Of a stretch of 45,984 nt of DNA, positions 2,749 to 13,261 are shown in pieces; the first letter of the stretch is position 1; each line of letters begins with the position of its first letter. The stretch is from Gilliamella mensalis. GTDB lineage: Bacteria > Pseudomonadota > Gammaproteobacteria > Enterobacterales > Orbaceae. The notes under the pieces are model-generated. The model saw only the letters and a program-made list of their open reading frames with translations. It was not told where the DNA came from and did not search any database. The DNA lies in the NCBI RefSeq assembly GCF_900103085.1, contig NZ_FMWR01000012.1, forward strand, positions 1-45,984. Reading direction: 5' to 3'. Position numbers and translations under genes: made by a program.

Positions 2749-2974
2749 TAAAATTATAATTCCAAACAATGTAGACAAAGTGTACATGTATAACATTCTG
2801 CTGTTAAAATTACAAATTATTAATTTATTGCATGGAATAATCTAAACCAATATTGAATAATACATTACTGTACATATTTTTCTTTCTGAAAATTTCTGCA
2901 ATTAAATATTTGCATTTTTATGTTAAAAACATGCTATCATTTTGCAAATTTTTTTAGTTAAAAGTGGGAAAATT

Positions 2975-4072
2975 ATGAAGTATGACTATTTGATTGTTGG
3001 CAGTGGTCTATTTGGCTCTATATGTGCTCATGAATTAAAGAAAAAAGGGTATAACATACTTGTAATTGAAAAACGAGATCATCTAGCAGGAAACATATTT
3101 ACTGAAGATAATCAGGGCATTCAAGTTCATAAGTATGGCGCTCATATTTTTCATACTAATAATAAAACAGTATGGGATTATATAAATAGCTTTGCACAGT
3201 TTAATCGTTTTACCAATTCACCTATAGCAAATTATAAGAATAAATTATTCAATCTACCATTTAATATGAATACTTTTTATCAATTATGGGGAGTAAAAAC
3301 GCCTAAAGAAGCGCAAGCAAAAATTGAAGAGCAAAAAAAATTATATCATATTGAAAATCCAAAAAATCTTGAAGAACAAGCAATATCGCTAATCGGAAAA
3401 GATATTTATGAAATATTAATCAAAGGGTATACAGAAAAGCAGTGGGGAAGAAAAGCAACTGAACTTCCTCCATTTATAATTAATCGTTTACCCGTTCGAT
3501 TCACTTTTGATAACAACTACTTCAATGATAGATATCAAGGTATTCCAATTGGAGGTTATACACAAATAATTGAGAGAATGCTTGAAGGTATTGAGGTAAA
3601 ATTAAATACAGACTTTTTTGAAAATAAACACAAAAATCTGGAATTAGCAAATAAGATTATTTACACAGGTCCGATCGATAAATTTTATGATTATCAATAT
3701 GGTGCTCTAGAATATAGATCTTTACATTTTGAAAACGAAACAATTAATGAGTCAAATTATCAAGGAAATGCTGTAATTAATTATACTCAATACGATATAC
3801 CTTATACTCGAATTATAGAGCATAAGCATTTTGATTATGTCGAAACAGAACATACTATTATCACAAAGGAATACCCGCGTGACTGGCAAATTGGAGATGA
3901 AGCCTATTATCCAATTAATGACGATAAAAATGCCACATTATATAGAAAATATAAAGACCTAGCAGACAAAGAAAAGCAAATTTATTTTGGTGGCAGATTA
4001 GCTGAATATAAATATTATGATATGCATCATGTGATCGAAAAAGCTTTAGATTTTGTAAAAACAATCTATTAA
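2975..4072 (+). CDS. glf: UDP-galactopyranose mutase
   Basis: Glf is a flavoprotein that interconverts UDP-galactopyranose and UDP-galactofuranose in the cytoplasm, supplying galactofuranose for surface glycans. The 365-residue product (start ATG 2975, preceded by GTGGGA; the frame extends upstream from 2942 without a good site) opens with YDYLIVGSGLFGS, the FAD-binding GxGxxG loop, followed by VIEKRDHLAGN. It also has KYGAHIFHTNN, YTEKQWGRK and RLPVRFTFDNNYFND, all characteristic of bacterial UGM, and ends with FGGRLAEYKYYDMH, the conserved C-terminal flavin/substrate segment. Length is normal for the family (about 365-390). Its neighbour downstream on the other strand is a galactofuranosyltransferase, which would use the product. 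The call is secure. Confidence 0.97.
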   Translation: MKYDYLIVGSGLFGSICAHELKKKGYNILVIEKRDHLAGNIFTEDNQGIQVHKYGAHIFHTNNKTVWDYINSFAQFNRFTNSPIANYKNKLFNLPFNMNTFYQLWGVKTPKEAQAKIEEQKKLYHIENPKNLEEQAISLIGKDIYEILIKGYTEKQWGRKATELPPFIINRLPVRFTFDNNYFNDRYQGIPIGGYTQIIERMLEGIEVKLNTDFFENKHKNLELANKIIYTGPIDKFYDYQYGALEYRSLHFENETINESNYQGNAVINYTQYDIPYTRIIEHKHFDYVETEHTIITKEYPRDWQIGDEAYYPINDDKNATLYRKYKDLADKEKQIYFGGRLAEYKYYDMHHVIEKALDFVKTIY

Positions 4073-4106
4073 AAAATACTCCTGCCATTTAAAATGGCAG
4101 GAGTAT
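4071..4106 (-). terminator. Hairpin shared by the convergent glf and galactofuranosyltransferase genes
   Basis: A 15-bp perfect inverted repeat (ATACTCCTGCCATTT at 4076-4090 with its complement at 4092-4106) sits three bases after the glf stop and 29 bases after the end of the minus-strand gene. Read on the minus strand the stem is followed by six U (4071-4076), a classic intrinsic terminator. On the plus strand there is no long U tract, so termination of glf may be weaker. Confidence 0.85.
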
Positions 4107-4135
4107 CCTATAATAAATTAATGTTTTAAACATAT

Positions 4136-5875
4136 CTATATTTTTAAAATTTTAATCCAAAAATCTCTAGATGTTAGTTTTCCAAAGTTATTTTCGTATT
4201 TTGTTAAATTAGCTTTGTAGTTCCGTTTCATTTTGAAAACATCAATATAAAGACAAAATAATAATTTAAAGAATTTTACACGTGAAACTCTCGCGATATA
4301 GCCTGTATTATTGTTTGGTTTATAATAAAGAATATTTTTAAATCTAAAGATATGATCATAGTTAGCACAATAATTAAAATCTTGATAAGCTATTTTGCTT
4401 TTCATAGGAAGCAAAAGACCATTAAATGTTAATTTTTTAACAATTTTTCTTCTGCGTTTATAAGTAAATACTGGATTTATTGAATCCATATTTATATCAT
4501 GAAATTTTTCTACTTTCACAAAACTATTAATTTCTTTCCTAACTTCACTTAAATCATAATTATTAAACCAAAAATCGATATCTCCCAAAACATGGTGAAG
4601 CGCTAGTCTAATAGCTAATACTGTTTCATATTTATGAGAATAAAGCGCATCCAAATAAAAAAGTTTATACGTTTTAAGTATTTTTTTGATAGGGTTTTTT
4701 AGATAAAAGGAATTTATTATATGATTCCGTGTATCCAAGTACATATTTAACGGGCATGATTTAGTTGCAAAATTCTCCCCATAGCAAGCAATTCCAATTG
4801 GAGATATATAGTTAAAATCATTAGAAATACCAAAAAATATATCGTCTCCTCTAACAAAAAACGGAAAAGTATAATTTTTTATGGACTTAATTGGGAAAGC
4901 AAAAAACCACCATGCTCCATAATTTGCCTTCGGATGATATCCTAGTTCTGATACTAACATACTATGACGATCTGCAACATTGTAATTGTAGCAATTTGGT
5001 TTACAAATTGCATCAAACTGTGCGCCTTTTTCAATAAGGAAATCAGGTCTATCATCCATGAATAAAGATCCACTCACTACTGAATTGTCTTTTAAAGCAT
5101 AAGATAAAATCCAATAGGCTCTTAATATACTTTCTGTTTCACAAGATGCGTCATCATCCATGAATAAAACATGTGTTGCATTGGTATTAGTTTCGTAATG
5201 AAGCAAACCACGCATAAAACCGCCTGAACCACCAGTATTTTCATTAGGAATGACATTTACACCATTAGCTTCTTCTTTTGTAATATTTTTAGAATTATCT
5301 ACTATTGTAAAAAGAATTTTACTAGAAAAATATTTGTTATCTAGTATGTTTTTCTTTACTCTTTCAATAGCAGGCAATACATATTTTTTACGATTAAAAT
5401 GTGTAACACTTATACCAAGGACCACATCCCTTTTTGGCTGTTCATAAGTATACCATCCGCCACCATTAAACACGACTTTATCGTCTATTGGAGAAATAGT
5501 AGTATATATCAATCCTCTATTTTCTATTTTTGATAAATCACATTCAAAAATAAATTGCTCGGAATTATTTAACTCAACTGTTGCACTCGCAAGTTCGTAA
5601 TCTGTTCCTATTGTAGCAATAAATAACTTAATAATAGCTTTACCCTTTCCTCTTGCGCGAAATTCAACACGATCTAATCCACATTGTTCTTTCCAAACGG
5701 GCAATGATAAAGCATTATAATATGAGTCAAAAGATACGATTCCACCAGCAAAAATGATGATTTCATCACTAGAATAACTAATTAAATGTGAGTGCAAATA
5801 TTTTGATGGATTTGAACCAAAAGTTTTATTTGGAATAAGAATATTTTGAAGACACGTTAAATTATTTGGAATCAT
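4136..5875 (-). CDS. GlfT2-like galactofuranosyltransferase (family 2)
   Basis: The 579-residue protein has the layout of mycobacterial GlfT2: an N-terminal beta-sandwich region (about 1-145, with RVEFRARGKGKA and FNGGGWYT), a GT-A domain starting VVLGISVTHFNRKKY, NENTGGSGGFMRG, the metal-binding FMDDDA near residue 239, and FVRGDDIFFG near 342, which matches the family's RxDDxEFG catalytic stretch. The last 170 residues are basic. In GlfT2 this fold polymerises galactofuranose from UDP-Galf; the neighbouring glf supports UDP-Galf as donor. Whether this enzyme makes one linkage or a polymer cannot be told. A candidate promoter lies at 5911-5938; the ribosome-binding site is weak. No membrane segment is obvious, so it is presumably peripheral at the inner membrane. 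Confidence 0.85.
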   Translation of the reverse strand: MIPNNLTCLQNILIPNKTFGSNPSKYLHSHLISYSSDEIIIFAGGIVSFDSYYNALSLPVWKEQCGLDRVEFRARGKGKAIIKLFIATIGTDYELASATVELNNSEQFIFECDLSKIENRGLIYTTISPIDDKVVFNGGGWYTYEQPKRDVVLGISVTHFNRKKYVLPAIERVKKNILDNKYFSSKILFTIVDNSKNITKEEANGVNVIPNENTGGSGGFMRGLLHYETNTNATHVLFMDDDASCETESILRAYWILSYALKDNSVVSGSLFMDDRPDFLIEKGAQFDAICKPNCYNYNVADRHSMLVSELGYHPKANYGAWWFFAFPIKSIKNYTFPFFVRGDDIFFGISNDFNYISPIGIACYGENFATKSCPLNMYLDTRNHIINSFYLKNPIKKILKTYKLFYLDALYSHKYETVLAIRLALHHVLGDIDFWFNNYDLSEVRKEINSFVKVEKFHDINMDSINPVFTYKRRRKIVKKLTFNGLLLPMKSKIAYQDFNYCANYDHIFRFKNILYYKPNNNTGYIARVSRVKFFKLLFCLYIDVFKMKRNYKANLTKYENNFGKLTSRDFWIKILKI

Positions 5876-6200: not shown

Positions 6201-7232
6201 CTATTTAATTGGAATTAGAGTATGTATTATTTTTTTAAAACAATATTTAAGATAGCAAATTAAGCCAGAAAACAATTTTTTCTGATGTAGCCTATGTTTT
6301 GCACAATATCTCATTTGCATGGATGTGGTTGCTGGCAATAAAGGCGTTGATTCCCAAGGAGAACATGATTTTGCGTTAAGGAAATATTGAGAACATTCAT
6401 AATTTTCAGCCCAATTATGCCATGGTTTAGTTGGACCAATATAATGAATTAATATTGTTTGAGCCATGATAGGGGCGTAACATGCTAATTTTGTTTTATA
6501 TTTTAGTTCATAATTAATACTAACTTGTTGATTGTATTTTCTATCAAGATATTTAACTTTTTCGAGCAATAACAAGTTTAATACATCTTGATCTAGATGT
6601 GTGAATTTTTGTGACAGGTTGGAGTCAGAGAGCAACTCTAACGCTTTACTATTTATATTAAATTCTTTCCATTTTTTTAGATTAATTAGTAAAAAACCAG
6701 CATTAAAGTAACCTGATGATAATTTATGTTCATTGAGTCGGATCGCACATTTATCCCACCACGCTGGATCTTTTTCAGTAACTACAAAGGCAATATTATT
6801 ATCGAATTGTAATGTAAATAATTCTTGCAGTGATCCTTTACATATAATATCGGCATCCAGATAGAGTATTTTATCTGTTTTTTCATAAAAAAAATCAGCA
6901 ACTATAAATCGAAAGTAGGTTGCAATTGTCCAGTTTTTTGTTGTTGGGAGGTTGGATAAATTATTGTCATCCACTAAATAAATGCTTATATCCGTATTAT
7001 ATCTATAAGCAAGCTGCTCTAATTTCTTTTCAAAATCATCGTTAATGTAATTTGTGAATATATGAAAACTAAAATTCAGATTAGGATTAGCTAATAAAAT
7101 AGATGTGATAGAAACAGCGCAACCTAAAAAAAAGTTTTTATCAATGCCATATGCAATGTTTAATGGATTAACGATCTGACTATTTTCAAATCTTATTCTT
7201 TTTTTTATAATATTATTTGCATTAAAATACAT
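6201..7232 (-). CDS. Family 8 glycosyltransferase (RfaJ/WaaJ-like LPS hexosyltransferase)
   Basis: GT8 enzymes of the WaaJ/WaaO type add glucose or galactose from UDP-sugars to the LPS outer core at the inner face of the inner membrane. In this 343-residue protein LNIAYGIDKNFFLGCAVSI starts the domain after about 25 residues, the metal-binding LYLDADIICKG is near residue 124, SGYFNAGFLLINLKKW and FTHLDQDVLN follow, and HYIGPTKPWH closes the catalytic core. The C-terminal region (SPW, then a basic KKLFSGLICYLKYCFKK helix) matches the small C-terminal domain of LPS galactosyl/glucosyltransferases that binds membrane. AGGAAA lies 8 bases before the ATG, supporting this start. It is one of three intact GT8 genes here, so each probably adds a different residue. 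Sugar and linkage cannot be assigned. Confidence 0.9.
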   Translation of the reverse strand: MYFNANNIIKKRIRFENSQIVNPLNIAYGIDKNFFLGCAVSITSILLANPNLNFSFHIFTNYINDDFEKKLEQLAYRYNTDISIYLVDDNNLSNLPTTKNWTIATYFRFIVADFFYEKTDKILYLDADIICKGSLQELFTLQFDNNIAFVVTEKDPAWWDKCAIRLNEHKLSSGYFNAGFLLINLKKWKEFNINSKALELLSDSNLSQKFTHLDQDVLNLLLLEKVKYLDRKYNQQVSINYELKYKTKLACYAPIMAQTILIHYIGPTKPWHNWAENYECSQYFLNAKSCSPWESTPLLPATTSMQMRYCAKHRLHQKKLFSGLICYLKYCFKKIIHTLIPIK

Positions 7233-7460: not shown

Positions 7461-9197
7461 ATGTCCAATAAATATAGCTCATTAAATACCATTAAACAGT
7501 TGTGGCCGTTTATTTATCCGCATAAAAAAGCATTAATTGTTGCAATTATTGCACTTTTGTTAAATGCAGCAACTGATGCAACTCTTATCTCACTAACAAA
7601 ACCTTTATTAGATAATGGGTTAATGGATAAAAATTATGAGTTATTAATTCTTTTTTCGATTAGCATTATTGGGTTAATTGCACTACGCGGATTATCAAAC
7701 TACTGTTCTACTTATTGCCTTTCTTGGTTATCTGGTAAAGTGGTTACTAAATTTAGACAGATGATTTTCAATCACTTAGTCAAAAGTCCTATCAGTTTTT
7801 TTGATAAAAACCCTGTTGGAGAACTTGTTACTGTAATCACTTATAATACTCAACTACTATCAAAAGCTTCATCGGATGCGCTTATTATTTTAGTAAGAGA
7901 GATTGCTTATGCTATTGGTTTATGTGTCGTTATGTTTTATGGTAATTGGAAATTGGCTTTAGTGTTAATTGTGGTTGTACCATTAGTTATTTTTATAGCT
8001 CAATTTATCGCAAAGAAGTTTCGGAATACACTTGTTTCTATGCAAAAAGGCATAGGCAATATTACAACAGCAGCAGATGAAATGCTGAAGGGGCATAAAG
8101 AAATTTTAATTTTTAATGCTCAAAAATATGAAAAAGATAATTTTTATTCAATTAATAAACTTTTTAGGAAAAGTATCTTAAAAATCGTACTTGTTTCGGG
8201 ATTATCAACGCCGATAATTCAATTAGTTGCTACATTGGCTTTAGGATTAATTTTATTTCTTGTTGCAAGCCAAGCATTGGATATCACTCCGGGGTCTTTT
8301 ACTGTGGTTTTTTCGGCTATGGTTGCGGTAATGCGTCCTTTGAGAGAGCTAACAAGTGTTCATCTTGAATTACAAAAAGGCTCTGTTGCTTGTGAGTCGC
8401 TTTTTGGACTTTTAAATTCGGCAGTTGAAGAAGATAACGGAACTATTGATTTAAAAAGGGCTGAAGGTAGTATTGAATTTCATCAAGTAACATACACATA
8501 TCCAACAAGAACAGCGCCATCTTTAAATAATATTAGCTTTAAAATTAAAAAAGGTGAAACAGTAGCTTTAGTGGGGCGTTCTGGTGCAGGAAAATCAACA
8601 ATAGCAAGCCTGATACCTAGGTTTTATGATGTACAAAAGGGGAAAATACTGGTAGATAGTATTGATATCAAGGATTACACTCTTGCTTCATTGCGGAAGC
8701 AAATTGGTTATGTTTCACAAAAAGTCCATTTATTTAATGGAACTATAGCGGATAACATAATTTATGGTGCTAAAAATCAGTACTCTCGAGAAGATATTAT
8801 TAATGCAGCTAAACAAGCTAATGCGATGGAGTTTATCGAAAAATTAGAAAATGGCTTGGATACAGAAATTGGTGATAATGGTGTTTTATTATCAGGTGGA
8901 CAACGACAAAGAATTGCTATTGCAAGAGTTCTTTTACGTGATAACCCTATTTTAATTCTTGATGAGGCTACCTCTGCGTTAGATAATGAATCCGAACGGT
9001 TTGTCCAACAAGCTATAGAGCATTTACAAAAAAACCGAACTTCTATTATTATTGCCCATCGATTATCAACAATTGAACGAGCAGATCGTATTTTAGTTAT
9101 TGATGAAGGTAACATCATTGAAGAAGGCACTCATAAAGCATTATTATTACAAAATGGTCTTTATGCCAAAATGCATCAATTACAATTTAACGCTTAA
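7461..9197 (+). CDS. msbA: MsbA-type lipid A/LPS flippase, copy 1 (diverged)
   Basis: A half-transporter with six membrane segments (about 20-310) fused to an ABC ATPase, 578 residues; MsbA dimers flip lipid A-core across the inner membrane. Walker A GRSGAGKST is near residue 373, the signature LSGGQRQR near 479, Walker B ILILDEA near 497, and the switch AHRLST near 535. The opening (IKQLWPFIYPHKKAL) and LRGLSNY are MsbA-like. It departs from canonical MsbA in the first intracellular loop region, where GELVTVITYNTQLLSKASSD replaces the usual GxLLSRITYD-QVASSSS. At the lipid A-phosphate contacts of E. coli MsbA it keeps the Arg of LRG and VRE and the Arg of MRPL but has Arg for the following Lys (MRPLREL). 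It is followed 15 bases later by a second msbA. It could have drifted to another lipid-linked substrate. Confidence 0.9.
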   Translation: MSNKYSSLNTIKQLWPFIYPHKKALIVAIIALLLNAATDATLISLTKPLLDNGLMDKNYELLILFSISIIGLIALRGLSNYCSTYCLSWLSGKVVTKFRQMIFNHLVKSPISFFDKNPVGELVTVITYNTQLLSKASSDALIILVREIAYAIGLCVVMFYGNWKLALVLIVVVPLVIFIAQFIAKKFRNTLVSMQKGIGNITTAADEMLKGHKEILIFNAQKYEKDNFYSINKLFRKSILKIVLVSGLSTPIIQLVATLALGLILFLVASQALDITPGSFTVVFSAMVAVMRPLRELTSVHLELQKGSVACESLFGLLNSAVEEDNGTIDLKRAEGSIEFHQVTYTYPTRTAPSLNNISFKIKKGETVALVGRSGAGKSTIASLIPRFYDVQKGKILVDSIDIKDYTLASLRKQIGYVSQKVHLFNGTIADNIIYGAKNQYSREDIINAAKQANAMEFIEKLENGLDTEIGDNGVLLSGGQRQRIAIARVLLRDNPILILDEATSALDNESERFVQQAIEHLQKNRTSIIIAHRLSTIERADRILVIDEGNIIEEGTHKALLLQNGLYAKMHQLQFNA

Positions 9198-9212
9198 TTA
9201 AAAAAATAAATT

Positions 9213-10985
9213 ATGAAAAAAAATACTAATCAATCAATAAACAATAATATTGATCGAGACTCATCAACGTGGCAAACTTTTTCTAAATTATGGCCTTATA
9301 TTGCTAAACACAAATTGATTCTGTTTTTTTCAGTCATATTGCTTGTTTTTAGTGCATTTGCAGACACTTCGCTTATTGCGTTGTTACAACCTTTACTTGA
9401 TAAAGGTTTTGTTGAAAATGATCAGCATTTTTTAATGATGGCACCTTTTTATATTTTTGGGCTTGTATTACTCCGTGGTATCGCTAATTATGGATATTCT
9501 TTCTTTTTATCTTTGATTTCTACCAAAATCGTACTTAATATTCGTCAGCGCCTTTTTAGTCATTTTGTCGATGCTCCGGTAAGTTATTATGACCAAAACT
9601 CTACAGGAAGATTATTGTCTCGCATTACCTATGATACTGATCAAGTCGCTTCATCATCATCCGATGCTTTGATAACAATAGTACGTGAATCAGCTTTTAT
9701 TTGTGGGTTATTTTATACAATGTTCAGCAATAGCTGGCAGTTGTCTTTATCGTTGATTATCATTACGCCAATTGTTATTGGATTAATCTCTTTTATTTCT
9801 ATAAAATTTAGAAGACTAGCTAAAAATATGCAAAATTCAATGGGTAATGTCACCATGTCCGTTGAACAAATGCTAAAAGGCCATCGAGAAATTATTCTTT
9901 TTGGCGCCCAAGATGAAGAGTCAAAAAACTTTGATAAAGTGAATAATAAATTTCGTCGCGATGGTATGAGATTAGTGTCTATTTCTGCATTATCAACGCC
10001 TATTGTTCAACTTATCATTTCGTTTGCTATCGCTTTTGTCTTATTTATGGCGAGTAACCCTGATTTGAGTATTAGTCCCGGGCAGTTTACGGTCGTTTTT
10101 TCTTCTTTAGTTGCATTAATGCAACCAATAAAAAGTTTAACTAGTGTTAATGCCGAATTTCAGAAAGGGATGGCGGCTTGTCAAACTTTGTTTGCTATTT
10201 TTGAACAGCCAATCGAAAAAGATAATGGAAAAATCAATATTGAGAGAGTTAAAGGCAATATTGAATTTAAGCATGTCAGCTTTACTTATGAAAATAGACA
10301 AGAGCCAGCATTGAAAGATATTAGCTTTTTGGTAGAGCCATGTAAGACAGTTGCATTAGTTGGGCGCTCGGGATCAGGGAAAACAACTATCGCAAGTTTG
10401 CTTACGCGTTTTTATGATATAAGTGAAGGTGAAATTTTAATTGATAGTAATAACATTCAAGATTTAACTTTATATAGTTTGCGTAATCAAATTGGATTAG
10501 TTTCACAAAATGTACATTTGTTTAATGATACTGTTGCAAATAATATCGCTTACGGGAAAGTTGGTGAATATTCTCGAAATGAAATAGAAGAAGCTGCTAA
10601 AAAAGCGTATGCGTATGATTTTATTGTAGGGCTTGAAAATGGATTTGATACGATAGTGGGTGAAAGTGGTGTGTTATTATCTGGCGGTCAACGACAACGT
10701 ATTGCAATAGCAAGAGCTTTATTACGAGATACACCGATATTAGTACTTGATGAAGCCACTTCAGCCTTAGATACTGAATCAGAACAAGCAATCCAAAAAG
10801 CTTTAGATGTGCTACAAATAGGACGGACATCAATAGTTATTGCTCATCGGTTATCAACAATTGAAAATGCGGATAAAATACTTGTCATTGATAGTGGCAA
10901 GATTATTGAGCAAGGTAATCATCAAGAATTATTATCAATGAATGGATTATATGCAAAGTTATATCAAGGAAATTTTACAAATTAA
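9213..10985 (+). CDS. msbA: MsbA-type lipid A/LPS flippase, copy 2 (canonical-like)
   Basis: 590 residues with six membrane segments then an ABC ATPase: GRSGSGKTT near residue 385, LSGGQRQR near 490, ILVLDEA near 508, AHRLST near 546. This copy is closer to E. coli MsbA: STWQTFSKLWP at the N-terminus, GRLLSRITYDTDQVASSSSD intact, and VSQNVHLFNDTVANNIAYG identical to the family core. Of the residues contacting lipid A phosphates in E. coli, the Arg of LRG and VRE and the Lys of PIKSL are kept, but the Arg before it is Gln (MQPIKSL). It is 15 bases downstream of copy 1 and probably co-transcribed with it. This is the better candidate for the essential lipid A flippase. The usual neighbour lpxK is absent. 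Confidence 0.94.
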   Translation: MKKNTNQSINNNIDRDSSTWQTFSKLWPYIAKHKLILFFSVILLVFSAFADTSLIALLQPLLDKGFVENDQHFLMMAPFYIFGLVLLRGIANYGYSFFLSLISTKIVLNIRQRLFSHFVDAPVSYYDQNSTGRLLSRITYDTDQVASSSSDALITIVRESAFICGLFYTMFSNSWQLSLSLIIITPIVIGLISFISIKFRRLAKNMQNSMGNVTMSVEQMLKGHREIILFGAQDEESKNFDKVNNKFRRDGMRLVSISALSTPIVQLIISFAIAFVLFMASNPDLSISPGQFTVVFSSLVALMQPIKSLTSVNAEFQKGMAACQTLFAIFEQPIEKDNGKINIERVKGNIEFKHVSFTYENRQEPALKDISFLVEPCKTVALVGRSGSGKTTIASLLTRFYDISEGEILIDSNNIQDLTLYSLRNQIGLVSQNVHLFNDTVANNIAYGKVGEYSRNEIEEAAKKAYAYDFIVGLENGFDTIVGESGVLLSGGQRQRIAIARALLRDTPILVLDEATSALDTESEQAIQKALDVLQIGRTSIVIAHRLSTIENADKILVIDSGKIIEQGNHQELLSMNGLYAKLYQGNFTN

Positions 10986-11050: not shown

Positions 11051-12169
11051 ATGATTAATAAAGTACTAGAATGTATTAAATACTTGAATAGGCAGAGAAA
11101 TTTAAAGGTAAAACCGTTTAAATTGGCTATTAAATTAGCTTTATTAAATCGAAAAAAAAAGGTAAGGTCTGCATTTTTTCTAGAAAAGTATCGTTCCGTA
11201 GCAATTCTTATGAATGATCAAGGAATTGGCGATGCAATAGTTACTTCCTATTTAATTAATGCTCTTCGAGAAAATGGCTTTCAGGTTTATGTCTTAGTAG
11301 AAAAAAGAATAGCCTTTCTTTTTGATAAATTTATTTCTGTTGATGGGGTTTTATTCTACGATAGGAATAAAAACATAAAACAGATAAAAGAACAATTACA
11401 TAGTATAAGGATTGATGTCGCAATTGATCTTGTTGATAAAGGCCAAAATAGTGTAAGGCGCGCTCAAATAATTCAAGCTATCAATCCGTTACATACAATT
11501 GGTTTTAATCAAGATAAATATAAATTGTATGACACCTCAATTTATTATCACGAATACAAATCTCATATTTCAAAGAGAAGTCAGAAAATACTTGAATTTA
11601 TGGGTATTCAGCCCACGCCTATAAGGTACTTTGTTAATATTCCAACCGAAGCTGAGCTTTCGGCTAAAGATTTTATAAGTTCGTTGCTTGCTTCGAATAA
11701 AAATATCATTATTTTTAATCCTTATGGTTCAAATGAGGCTAGAAGCTTTTCTAATTCTCAAATTGATACAACTTTATCCTTTTTATCACAATATGATAAT
11801 TGCATAACAATTGTCGTGGGTGAAACTAATAAAATCTCTCATATTAAAGCTAAAAAAAATATTATTATCAATCCATTACCTACTTTTTTTCAAAGTGTTG
11901 CTTTAGTGAAGTTTTCAAATTTGGTGATTTCTGTGGACACTTCAATTGTGCATATTGCTTCTATTTATAATAAAAAAATGCTATGTGTTTATAATAATCG
12001 AATTATTGATAATAAGTTTATTAATAATTATGTGTGGGGACCAAATTACACTAATGCAATACAAATATTTACTAATGATCATTTAGGTACCGGACTTGGT
12101 GATCCGATAGCGAATCTTGATATTGGTATTATGCTCGAACAATTAAAATTAGAAATAGAAAAATTATAA
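11051..12169 (+). CDS. Family 9 glycosyltransferase (LPS heptosyltransferase-like)
   Basis: GT9 enzymes transfer heptose (or related sugars) from ADP-heptose to the LPS inner core. In this 372-residue GT-B protein the N-terminal domain has VAILMNDQGIGDAIVTS, whose GD fits the catalytic Asp of WaaC/WaaF, and the C-terminal domain has NIIIFNPYGSNEARSF and LVISVDTSIVHIASIYNKK, the conserved DT-x3-H nucleotide-binding motif. Before the domain there is a basic helix of about 45 residues (RQRNLKVKPFKLAIKLALL), longer than in WaaC or WaaF and likely membrane-binding. A weak AGGA precedes the ATG. Lying after msbA it is probably in the same transcription unit, so glycan assembly and export would be co-expressed. 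Which inner-core step it performs cannot be told. Confidence 0.82.
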   Translation: MINKVLECIKYLNRQRNLKVKPFKLAIKLALLNRKKKVRSAFFLEKYRSVAILMNDQGIGDAIVTSYLINALRENGFQVYVLVEKRIAFLFDKFISVDGVLFYDRNKNIKQIKEQLHSIRIDVAIDLVDKGQNSVRRAQIIQAINPLHTIGFNQDKYKLYDTSIYYHEYKSHISKRSQKILEFMGIQPTPIRYFVNIPTEAELSAKDFISSLLASNKNIIIFNPYGSNEARSFSNSQIDTTLSFLSQYDNCITIVVGETNKISHIKAKKNIIINPLPTFFQSVALVKFSNLVISVDTSIVHIASIYNKKMLCVYNNRIIDNKFINNYVWGPNYTNAIQIFTNDHLGTGLGDPIANLDIGIMLEQLKLEIEKL

Positions 12170-12310: not shown

Positions 12311-13261
12311 CTAATTTTTTAATTTATAGGCTAAATAAAGTAAATAATATTTTAAGCCAGCGATGAATTTTTTCTCTTTGATGCTGTTTTTGGCATAAAT
12401 ACGATAATCATTAACGCGCATTTTGGGTTTATAACTTTTAAGTGGACTATTGGACCATGGTGTGAAGTGTTTATAAAAACGATAGATATTTTGGGCAAGT
12501 CCTGTATGTTCTTGATACCACATTTTTCTGGCGCCAGTAAAGTGAATGATATAGGGTAAAGATTCTTTATTATAAAAAAATGTTTCTTTTTGTTTATCGT
12601 CCATCCAAGTAAACAAATAATTCCAACTAGGATCTATAAATAAAACTTGATGCTGCAGAACTATATTTAGTGCATCTTGATCCGGATATATTAAATGTTT
12701 TTTTCTTGCTGACATTAAAATTTTATTTGCTTTATTTTCTGTATCAAAAATCATCCAATTATTAACATTAATGTATAAAAAACCAGAGTTGAAGTAACTT
12801 TGAGAAGTCAGTTCTAGCCTTTTTTGATTTTTGGCCATATTTTCGCTATCTAATGAATCTTGCGTTACAGCACAAACGACGGAATCTATATTTATATTTA
12901 AAATCGTTGATATGTCAGAAAAGCATAAAGTATCAGCATCTAAATAAATAAATTTATCAATTTTACCATGTAATAGCCTTGGAACAGATAGGCGGATATA
13001 CATCGATCGGTTGATATGTTTTATTTTACTATTTTGAGGATCTGAATATTTATTTAACTCATCTATAGAAATCGGATAAACTGTGATTAATGGACTGATT
13101 TCTTGCAGTTTATGTTGTTCTTTTGGTGACACATCATATAAAAAAACATGGAAATGAATATTATTTTGCATATTATTTAGCATAATGGAGGTAATGGATA
13201 CACCTACATGCTCAAGATAATTTGAATCTGTACAATATGCGATGTTAATTCTATTATTCAT
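12311..13261 (-). CDS. Family 8 glycosyltransferase (LPS hexosyltransferase-like)
   Basis: A 316-residue GT8 protein. NRINIAYCTDSNYLEHVGVSI opens the domain at the N-terminus, the metal site is FIYLDADTLCFSD near residue 110, followed by SYFNSGFLYINVNNW and YPDQDALNIV, and HFTGARKMW corresponds to the usual HYxGxxKPW, with Met replacing Pro. The C-terminus (SPLKSYKP, then KKFIAGLKYYLLYLAYKLKN) is the basic, aromatic tail shared with the other GT8 proteins of this window. It should add a hexose to the LPS core from a UDP-sugar. Compared with its paralogues it lacks the 25-residue N-terminal extension. It is transcribed away from the next GT8 gene; the 145-base divergent gap must hold both promoters. 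Confidence 0.9.
   Translation of the reverse strand: MNNRINIAYCTDSNYLEHVGVSITSIMLNNMQNNIHFHVFLYDVSPKEQHKLQEISPLITVYPISIDELNKYSDPQNSKIKHINRSMYIRLSVPRLLHGKIDKFIYLDADTLCFSDISTILNINIDSVVCAVTQDSLDSENMAKNQKRLELTSQSYFNSGFLYINVNNWMIFDTENKANKILMSARKKHLIYPDQDALNIVLQHQVLFIDPSWNYLFTWMDDKQKETFFYNKESLPYIIHFTGARKMWYQEHTGLAQNIYRFYKHFTPWSNSPLKSYKPKMRVNDYRIYAKNSIKEKKFIAGLKYYLLYLAYKLKN

Follow-up and report, generated by a model that had tools for sequence, protein, structure and literature searches.

A tandem pair of MsbA genes and the absence of msbA at lpxK in Gilliamella and related Orbaceae

MsbA, an essential protein of Escherichia coli and a drug target, has been studied as a symmetric homodimer. The window analysed here, a stretch of 45,984 nucleotides from Gilliamella mensalis (G000:C29:1-45984, in a genome of 2.28 Mb on 44 contigs), encodes two MsbA half-transporters in intact open reading frames (ORFs) on the same strand, with 15 bases between them:

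7461..9197, + strand: msbA1 (copy 1, c1), a divergent MsbA half-transporter of 578 amino acids, assigned by family models, orthologs and a structure model
9213..10985, + strand: msbA2 (copy 2, c2), a near-canonical MsbA half-transporter of 590 amino acids, assigned by family models, downstream neighbour of copy 1

Both proteins contain the domains PF00664 and PF00005, share 51% identity and pass TIGR02203 (NCBIfam MsbA_lipidA; 721.8 bits for c1 and 736.7 for c2, cut-off 602), in agreement with a first-pass annotation of the sequence, which had described two full MsbA half-transporters at this spacing. The stricter equivalog model PRK11176, against which only c1 and c2 were scored, is passed by c2 (878.1) and failed by c1 (794.1, cut-off 867). 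A single-chain model of c1 (mean predicted local distance difference test score 84.7, predicted template modelling score 0.71) has MsbA 7ph3 as its top structure match (TM 0.89), and TM287/288 and TmrAB rank under the MsbAs. The pair are the sole MsbAs found in the genome, the next exporter being 33% identical; since this genome has lpxK, the pair would be expected to flip lipid A.

Occurrence and history of the pair

We searched 44 Orbaceae genomes, one per species, at a match threshold of E<=1e-120. Two MsbAs were found in 34 of them, namely in 32 of the 35 Gilliamella genomes and in G039 and G040 of another genus (g3), always on the same strand in the order c1 then c2 (34/34) and with an ORF gap of -104 to +47 bp, in which negative values reflect in-frame upstream starts chosen by the ORF caller (-11 in G039/G040). 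A single msbA beside lpxK occurs in eight genomes (G028, a Gilliamella, and G001, G002, G037, G038, G041, G042 and G043), in G041 as a fragment at a contig edge. The incomplete genomes G032 (67%) and G033 (59%) gave no match at this threshold and cannot be judged, which leaves 42. None of these 42 holds a lone member of the pair, and none holds the pair together with the canonical msbA. The first-pass annotation had called a tandem msbA unusual because msbA normally stands single beside lpxK, which these data support. It had also named conservation in relatives as a check; copy 1 is indeed present in 34 of the 44 genomes, and the eight with the canonical gene are without it. That the canonical msbA is gone at lpxK, and that the pair and the canonical gene never occur together, was absent from it.

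The E. coli msbA gene is flanked by ycaI (ComEC family) and lpxK. In the genome of the window, lpxK (PF02606) lies on contig C19 in the order comEC-lpxK-kdsB, with 105 bases from comEC to lpxK and no msbA; here and below, names at this site other than lpxK were given from translations and E. coli gene order, with no family search. We located lpxK in 43 of the 44 genomes (not in G035), and msbA is absent beside it in all 33 pair genomes where it was found, in 30 of which comEC and lpxK are 66-309 bp apart and enclose no msbA. It is highly probable that the pair has replaced the canonical MsbA.

Outside Orbaceae, we searched 297 genomes of the same order at E<=1e-160, scoring at most four candidates per genome, so that weaker paralogs could escape. 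Matches were obtained in 211 genomes, 25 of them Orbaceae; the other 186 have one MsbA in 185 cases and two in G272 only. The top score outside Orbaceae was 1.0e-206, and c1 orthologs in Orbaceae score 1.6e-245 or better. When 370 genomes drawn from the class were searched at E<=1e-205, the window itself was the sole match. As neither search gave an outside score near those of the c1 orthologs, c1 looks confined to Orbaceae in the sampled genomes. Named loci encoding a c1 relative of at least 75% identity are Gilliamella in 13 of 14 cases (for example G. bombicola, 95%, and G. intestini, 92%). The plasmid search with the pair returned 142 records, all at 60-80% identity and none covering 80%, and the phage search with c1 returned 191 records, all below 60% identity.

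Two side observations belong here. The two MsbAs of G272 lie at separate places (L101 and L132), and the second falls near but outside the first in the tree. The fourteenth named locus, L066, is a contig titled 'uncultured Apibacter' on which residues 1 to 346 of a c1 relative are encoded (85% identity), and is probably a mis-binned Gilliamella contig.

In a tree of 92 proteins, which leaves out G032, G033 and the G041 fragment, c1 and c2 (34 rows each) each form one clade with a support of 100 within the Orbaceae clade. In the 34-row tree, c1, c2 and the canonical genes of g1-g3 likewise each have a support of 100/100, and their stem lengths are 0.60, 0.25 and 0.18, respectively; G039/G040 are basal in both the c1 and the c2 clade, and the canonical genes branch in line with species. 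The branching order of c1, c2 and the canonical genes is not settled (approximately unbiased test, p-AU 0.47 for c1+c2, 0.21 for c2+canonical and 0.09 for c2+canonical g1-g3). An ordinary recent tandem duplication of msbA, giving more of the same pump, was considered, and the tandem arrangement in one orientation would suit it; the first-pass annotation had named recent duplicates as an outcome that would count against its reading. The trees exclude it: c1 and c2 form separate, fully supported clades that predate the split of the two genera, and at 51% identity and with fixed differences between the copies this explanation is extremely improbable. Both copies are under purifying selection, with a median pairwise ratio of nonsynonymous to synonymous substitution rates (dN/dS) of 0.082 for c1 (93 of 496 pairs usable) and 0.063 for c2 (62 of 496 usable).

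The species tree was built from seven genes in 18 of the 44 genomes, several of which are without some of the genes (G037, G038 and G040 are without four). It places the canonical G028 beside the pair-bearing G029 (100/100), shows both states, pair and single, within g3, and needs at least three switches between them. Forcing the nine pair-bearing g1 genomes together was rejected (p-AU 2.6e-6); this group was set before the seven-gene tree was made, but after an lpxK-kdsB tree had shown the pattern. In one possible history, the g1-g3 ancestor had both the canonical gene and the pair, and by our count some six lineages each retained just one of these two states; in the other, the pair travelled as a block and took the place of the canonical msbA. 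Both histories treat the pair as a unit.

Residue differences between the two copies

The differences between the copies considered here lie in intracellular loop 1 and in transmembrane helix 6 (TM6):

7782..7868, + strand: c1 intracellular loop 1 (equivalent of E. coli 110-138), rewritten, with V125 for R127 and N129 for D131
9570..9656, + strand: c2 intracellular loop 1, canonical motif kept
8334..8345, + strand: c1 TM6 codons R292-P-L-R295 (E. coli R296-K299), from sequence
10122..10133, + strand: c2 TM6 codons Q304-P-I-K307 (E. coli R296-K299), from sequence

The first-pass annotation had noticed that a stretch typical of the family is replaced in copy 1 and kept in copy 2, and this is borne out: c1 has GELVTVITYNTQLLSKASSD where c2 retains GRLLSRITYDTDQVASSSSD. 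This region, in loop 1, was examined because that annotation named it; when 499 windows of 29 residues were compared, the best one also fell there. At 19 loop-1 sites conserved in 24 canonical MsbAs (85% conservation threshold), c1 is changed or unconserved at 13, compared to 51 of 242 sites elsewhere (p 3.2e-5), and the enrichment persists at thresholds of 80% (p 9.7e-5) and 90% (p 7.7e-4). The corresponding counts for c2 are 2/19 and 31/242. R127 is lost and D131 is replaced by N in 34/34 c1, and both are kept in 34/34 c2. F116, which is described as conserved in all exporters and as lying opposite H214 in the other chain (PMC10770068), is lost in 33 of the 34 c1 proteins, the exception being the c1 of the window itself; in c2 this position is Y in 28 and F in 6.

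The same genome offers a parallel to this one-sided loss. A CydD/CydC tandem on contig C19 has lost the equivalents of R127 and D131 in CydD (581.8, cut-off 435) and kept them in the partner, which is putatively CydC by its position. CydDC is a heterodimer, and other heterodimers such as TAP keep the loop-1 motif in both halves; the CydDC parallel is one example.

In TM6, the R-PL-R of copy 1 and Q-PI-K of copy 2 pointed out by the first-pass annotation proved to be nearly fixed over the 34 pairs. Position 296 is R in 34/34 c1, Q in 34/34 c2 and K in the 7 aligned canonical Orbaceae MsbAs, and position 299 is R in 33/34 c1 (K in G018), K in 34/34 c2 and R in 2/7 canonical Orbaceae proteins. 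Judged by these counts, the pattern is not due to chance. R78, R148, E149 and Q256 are kept in 34/34 proteins of either copy, so that within the lipid A ring set R78/R148/R296/K299/E149 c1 is basic or acidic throughout and c2 differs by Q296 alone; D252 is T or S alike in c1, c2 and the canonical Orbaceae proteins.

The same annotation had read these as reciprocal changes at lipid A-contact residues, and the residues stand as described. In a study with an E. coli msbA-ts strain, single R78A, R148A or R296A mutants rescued the strain, double mutants failed to do so, and K299A did not inhibit transport of phosphatidylethanolamine (PMC8660845). Because R296A alone still rescues, position 296 already varies between R and K in canonical MsbAs, and K299R is conservative, the substitutions at 296 and 299 alone do not show altered lipid A binding. 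As E. coli single-arginine mutants still rescue, Q296 need not disable c2. By comparison of the sequences, the rewriting of loop 1 in c1 is the larger change.

The ATPase motifs are complete in both copies. The nucleotide-binding domain (NBD) positions checked, which cover Walker A, Q-loop, signature, Walker B and H-loop (351, 376, 382, 424, 481-485, 505, 506, 512 and 537), have the E. coli identity in 34/34 c1 and 34/34 c2, and the Walker A position S383 is S or T, in c1 S in 31 and T in 3. This bears on the idea that c1 does not transport at all and serves as a regulator or assembly partner of c2 without being half of a working pump. Its loss of R127 and D131 in all 34 pairs and of F116 in 33 would suit such a role; with the checked NBD positions kept in 34/34 and a low dN/dS, we regard it as quite unlikely.

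Genomic surroundings

The Gilliamella pair is part of a variable locus for surface glycans, to the left of a helicase gene of the DinG/YoaA type (named by its domains), which lies within the stretch compared in 26 of 32 genomes; the remaining six are three short contigs and three stretches that end near the expected place. The following genes surround the pair in the window:

71-1621: ORF of 516 amino acids, no Pfam or NCBIfam match; relatives lie near the pair in G012 and G020
2942-5875: glf (UDP-galactopyranose mutase) and an adjoining glycosyltransferase gene with a GlfT2 N-terminal domain
6201..7232, - strand: gene like those for glycosyltransferase family 8 (GT8) lipopolysaccharide galactosyltransferases, divergent from msbA1 (PF01501; PRK15171 461.4 bits, cut-off 461)
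11051..12169, + strand: family 9 (GT9) heptosyltransferase-like gene (PF01075), 65 bp downstream of the pair
12311-13261: GT8 gene, with a relative nearby in 30/32 Gilliamella pair genomes

The GT9 gene is possibly on the same transcript as the pair; a relative of at least 45% identity lies within reach of the pair in 12 of the 34 genomes, three times on the pair's other side. A scan for promoters and terminators was near chance (26 compared to 21.6 expected, and 3 compared to 1.9 expected, respectively). Wzy_C (WaaL/Wzy-type) had no match in the genome of the window and one below-cut-off match among six genomes, a search that divergent ligases could escape; by gene content, this may point to a lipooligosaccharide without O-antigen.

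With glf and the GlfT2-like gene within 6 kb, c1 could be a flippase dedicated to a galactofuranose (Galf)-bearing or other locus-specific lipid-linked glycan, one of the options that the first-pass annotation had raised for a functional divergence of the copies. The glf gene does not track the pair: it is present in 6 of the 44 Orbaceae genomes and in 4 of the 32 Gilliamella pair genomes, and in G039/G040 it lies far from the pair. Moreover, the glycosyltransferases beside the pair vary between genomes while the pair stays. A role of this kind is very unlikely, and of the options raised a heterodimer would fit best.

The surroundings of the pair in G039/G040 are different, with hydrogenase-maturation and SelB-like genes as neighbours (read from translations, with no family search); the DinG loci of these genomes contain glycosyltransferase-like genes and no msbA. 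In the canonical G028, comparison with the window recognised no glycosyltransferase-like neighbour of DinG (L211, G028:C1:1948000-1966000). As sister to a pair-bearing genome, G028 looks, by gene content, as if glycan locus and pair had been lost together.

At lpxK, three pair genomes have, in place of comEC, a protein of 680-682 amino acids of the ATP-binding cassette (ABC) type, 25-28% identical to MsbA, and a protein of 1307-1315 amino acids. The one unit scanned has an ABC_tran domain and RTX repeats, and these genes are perhaps a type I secretion unit:

L187:1023-7013 (G026): the two genes directly upstream of lpxK
L188:1144-7125 (G010): the same
L189:980-6991 (G004): the same

One transporter of unlike halves or two homodimers

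We put it at about an even chance that c1 and c2 form one functional unit that works mainly as an MsbA1-MsbA2 heterodimer. The heterodimer is preferred because c1 and c2 are kept or absent together, because the changes are one-sided, affecting the coupling loop in c1 and the ring in c2, and because CydD/CydC of the same genome shows a one-sided loop-1 loss. The different surroundings of the pair in G039/G040 and Gilliamella, the absence of msbA at lpxK, the fully supported clades with G039/G040 basal in both, the repeated switches and the purifying selection were also counted in favour of a functional unit. In mechanistic terms, the flipping of lipid A-core in Gilliamella and in a second Orbaceae lineage would have passed from homodimeric MsbA to a two-gene MsbA, whose products would assemble mainly as the heterodimer. 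The c2 half would bring a coupling loop 1 of the standard kind and, with Q296 and K299, a ring that is less basic; the c1 half would bring the altered loop 1 and, with R296 and R299, a TM6 pair that is basic throughout. The substrate between these unlike halves would be lipid A-core, or lipooligosaccharide made by the neighbouring glycosyltransferases, and the resulting flippase would be asymmetric, with both ATP sites competent. The further proposal, that two obligate unlike halves constitute a heterodimeric lipid A flippase and that this form has displaced the homodimeric one on more than one occasion in bee-gut and related Orbaceae, is tentative, falling a little short of even; in it, coupling loop 1 and the ring around lipid A, not the ATP sites, would be the seat of the asymmetry.

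Several points weigh against a heterodimer. The enrichment of c1 changes in loop 1 vanishes at fully invariant sites (2/6 compared to 21/147, p 0.22). Covariation between c1-116 and c2-214 gave no usable signal in the 34 pairs, of which 30 have H214 with L or H at 116, three Y214 with H116 and one H214 with F116. A degenerate ATP site was looked for in both copies of the 34 pairs and not found; many heterodimeric exporters carry one, a feature that is common, not universal, and a heterodimer having two canonical ATP sites is conceivable (PMC7756269). The c1-c2 complex is itself a prediction, c1 having been modelled as a single chain only. Finally, by the two-of-three-arginines rule from E. coli, c2 alone could work.

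The main rival, a real possibility though one we place clearly below even, is that the copies form two homodimers with divided labour, c2 acting as the lipid A-core flippase and c1 serving another lipid or lipooligosaccharide form. The NBD motifs are complete in both copies, and c2 is nearer to canonical MsbA, alone passing PRK11176 and retaining R78 and R148, which are sufficient by the E. coli data. The longer stem of c1 (0.60 compared to 0.25) and the position of the Gilliamella pair within a glycan locus also speak for this explanation. However, repeated switches would be expected to leave genomes with the canonical gene plus c1, or with c2 alone, and neither was seen in the 42 genomes. 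In G039/G040 the pair lies outside any glycan locus, and a c1 homodimer would carry the altered loop 1 in both halves.

If a natural pair has indeed replaced MsbA, it could serve to assign each part of lipid A to the half that contacts it, to find out if the pump needs both coupling loops or just one, and to follow the change of a homodimeric exporter into a heterodimer that retains both ATP sites. Judged by titles and the beginnings of abstracts, none of the papers listed describes a tandem or heterodimeric MsbA in Orbaceae, which is weak evidence as subscription papers are mostly outside such a search; on MsbA, lipooligosaccharide, lipid A or glycosyltransferases of Gilliamella, nothing relevant was among the matches listed.

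More than one MsbA-like half-transporter per genome occurs elsewhere: Candidatus Liberibacter asiaticus has MsbA1 and MsbA2, and an msbA2 has reportedly been found in Sinorhizobium meliloti. The locus tags of the Liberibacter proteins are far apart and their NBDs are 43% identical, and the available portion of that report describes no lpxK-linked gene replaced by a co-inherited tandem pair (PMC3688454). With E. coli MsbA, the Orbaceae pair shares the full-length TIGR02203 family, the fold of c1, R78/R148/E149/Q256 and the NBD motifs; it differs in loop 1 of c1, in R296 of c2, and in being two genes away from lpxK where E. coli has one gene beside it. The heterodimeric type IV exporters (TM287/288, TmrAB, TAP and CydDC) resemble the pair in consisting of two divergent half-transporters from adjacent genes, and c1 shares with CydD of its own genome the one-sided loss of the loop-1 R and D. 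In contrast to these exporters, neither c1 nor c2 has a degenerate ATP site, and the Orbaceae pair is known from its genes alone.

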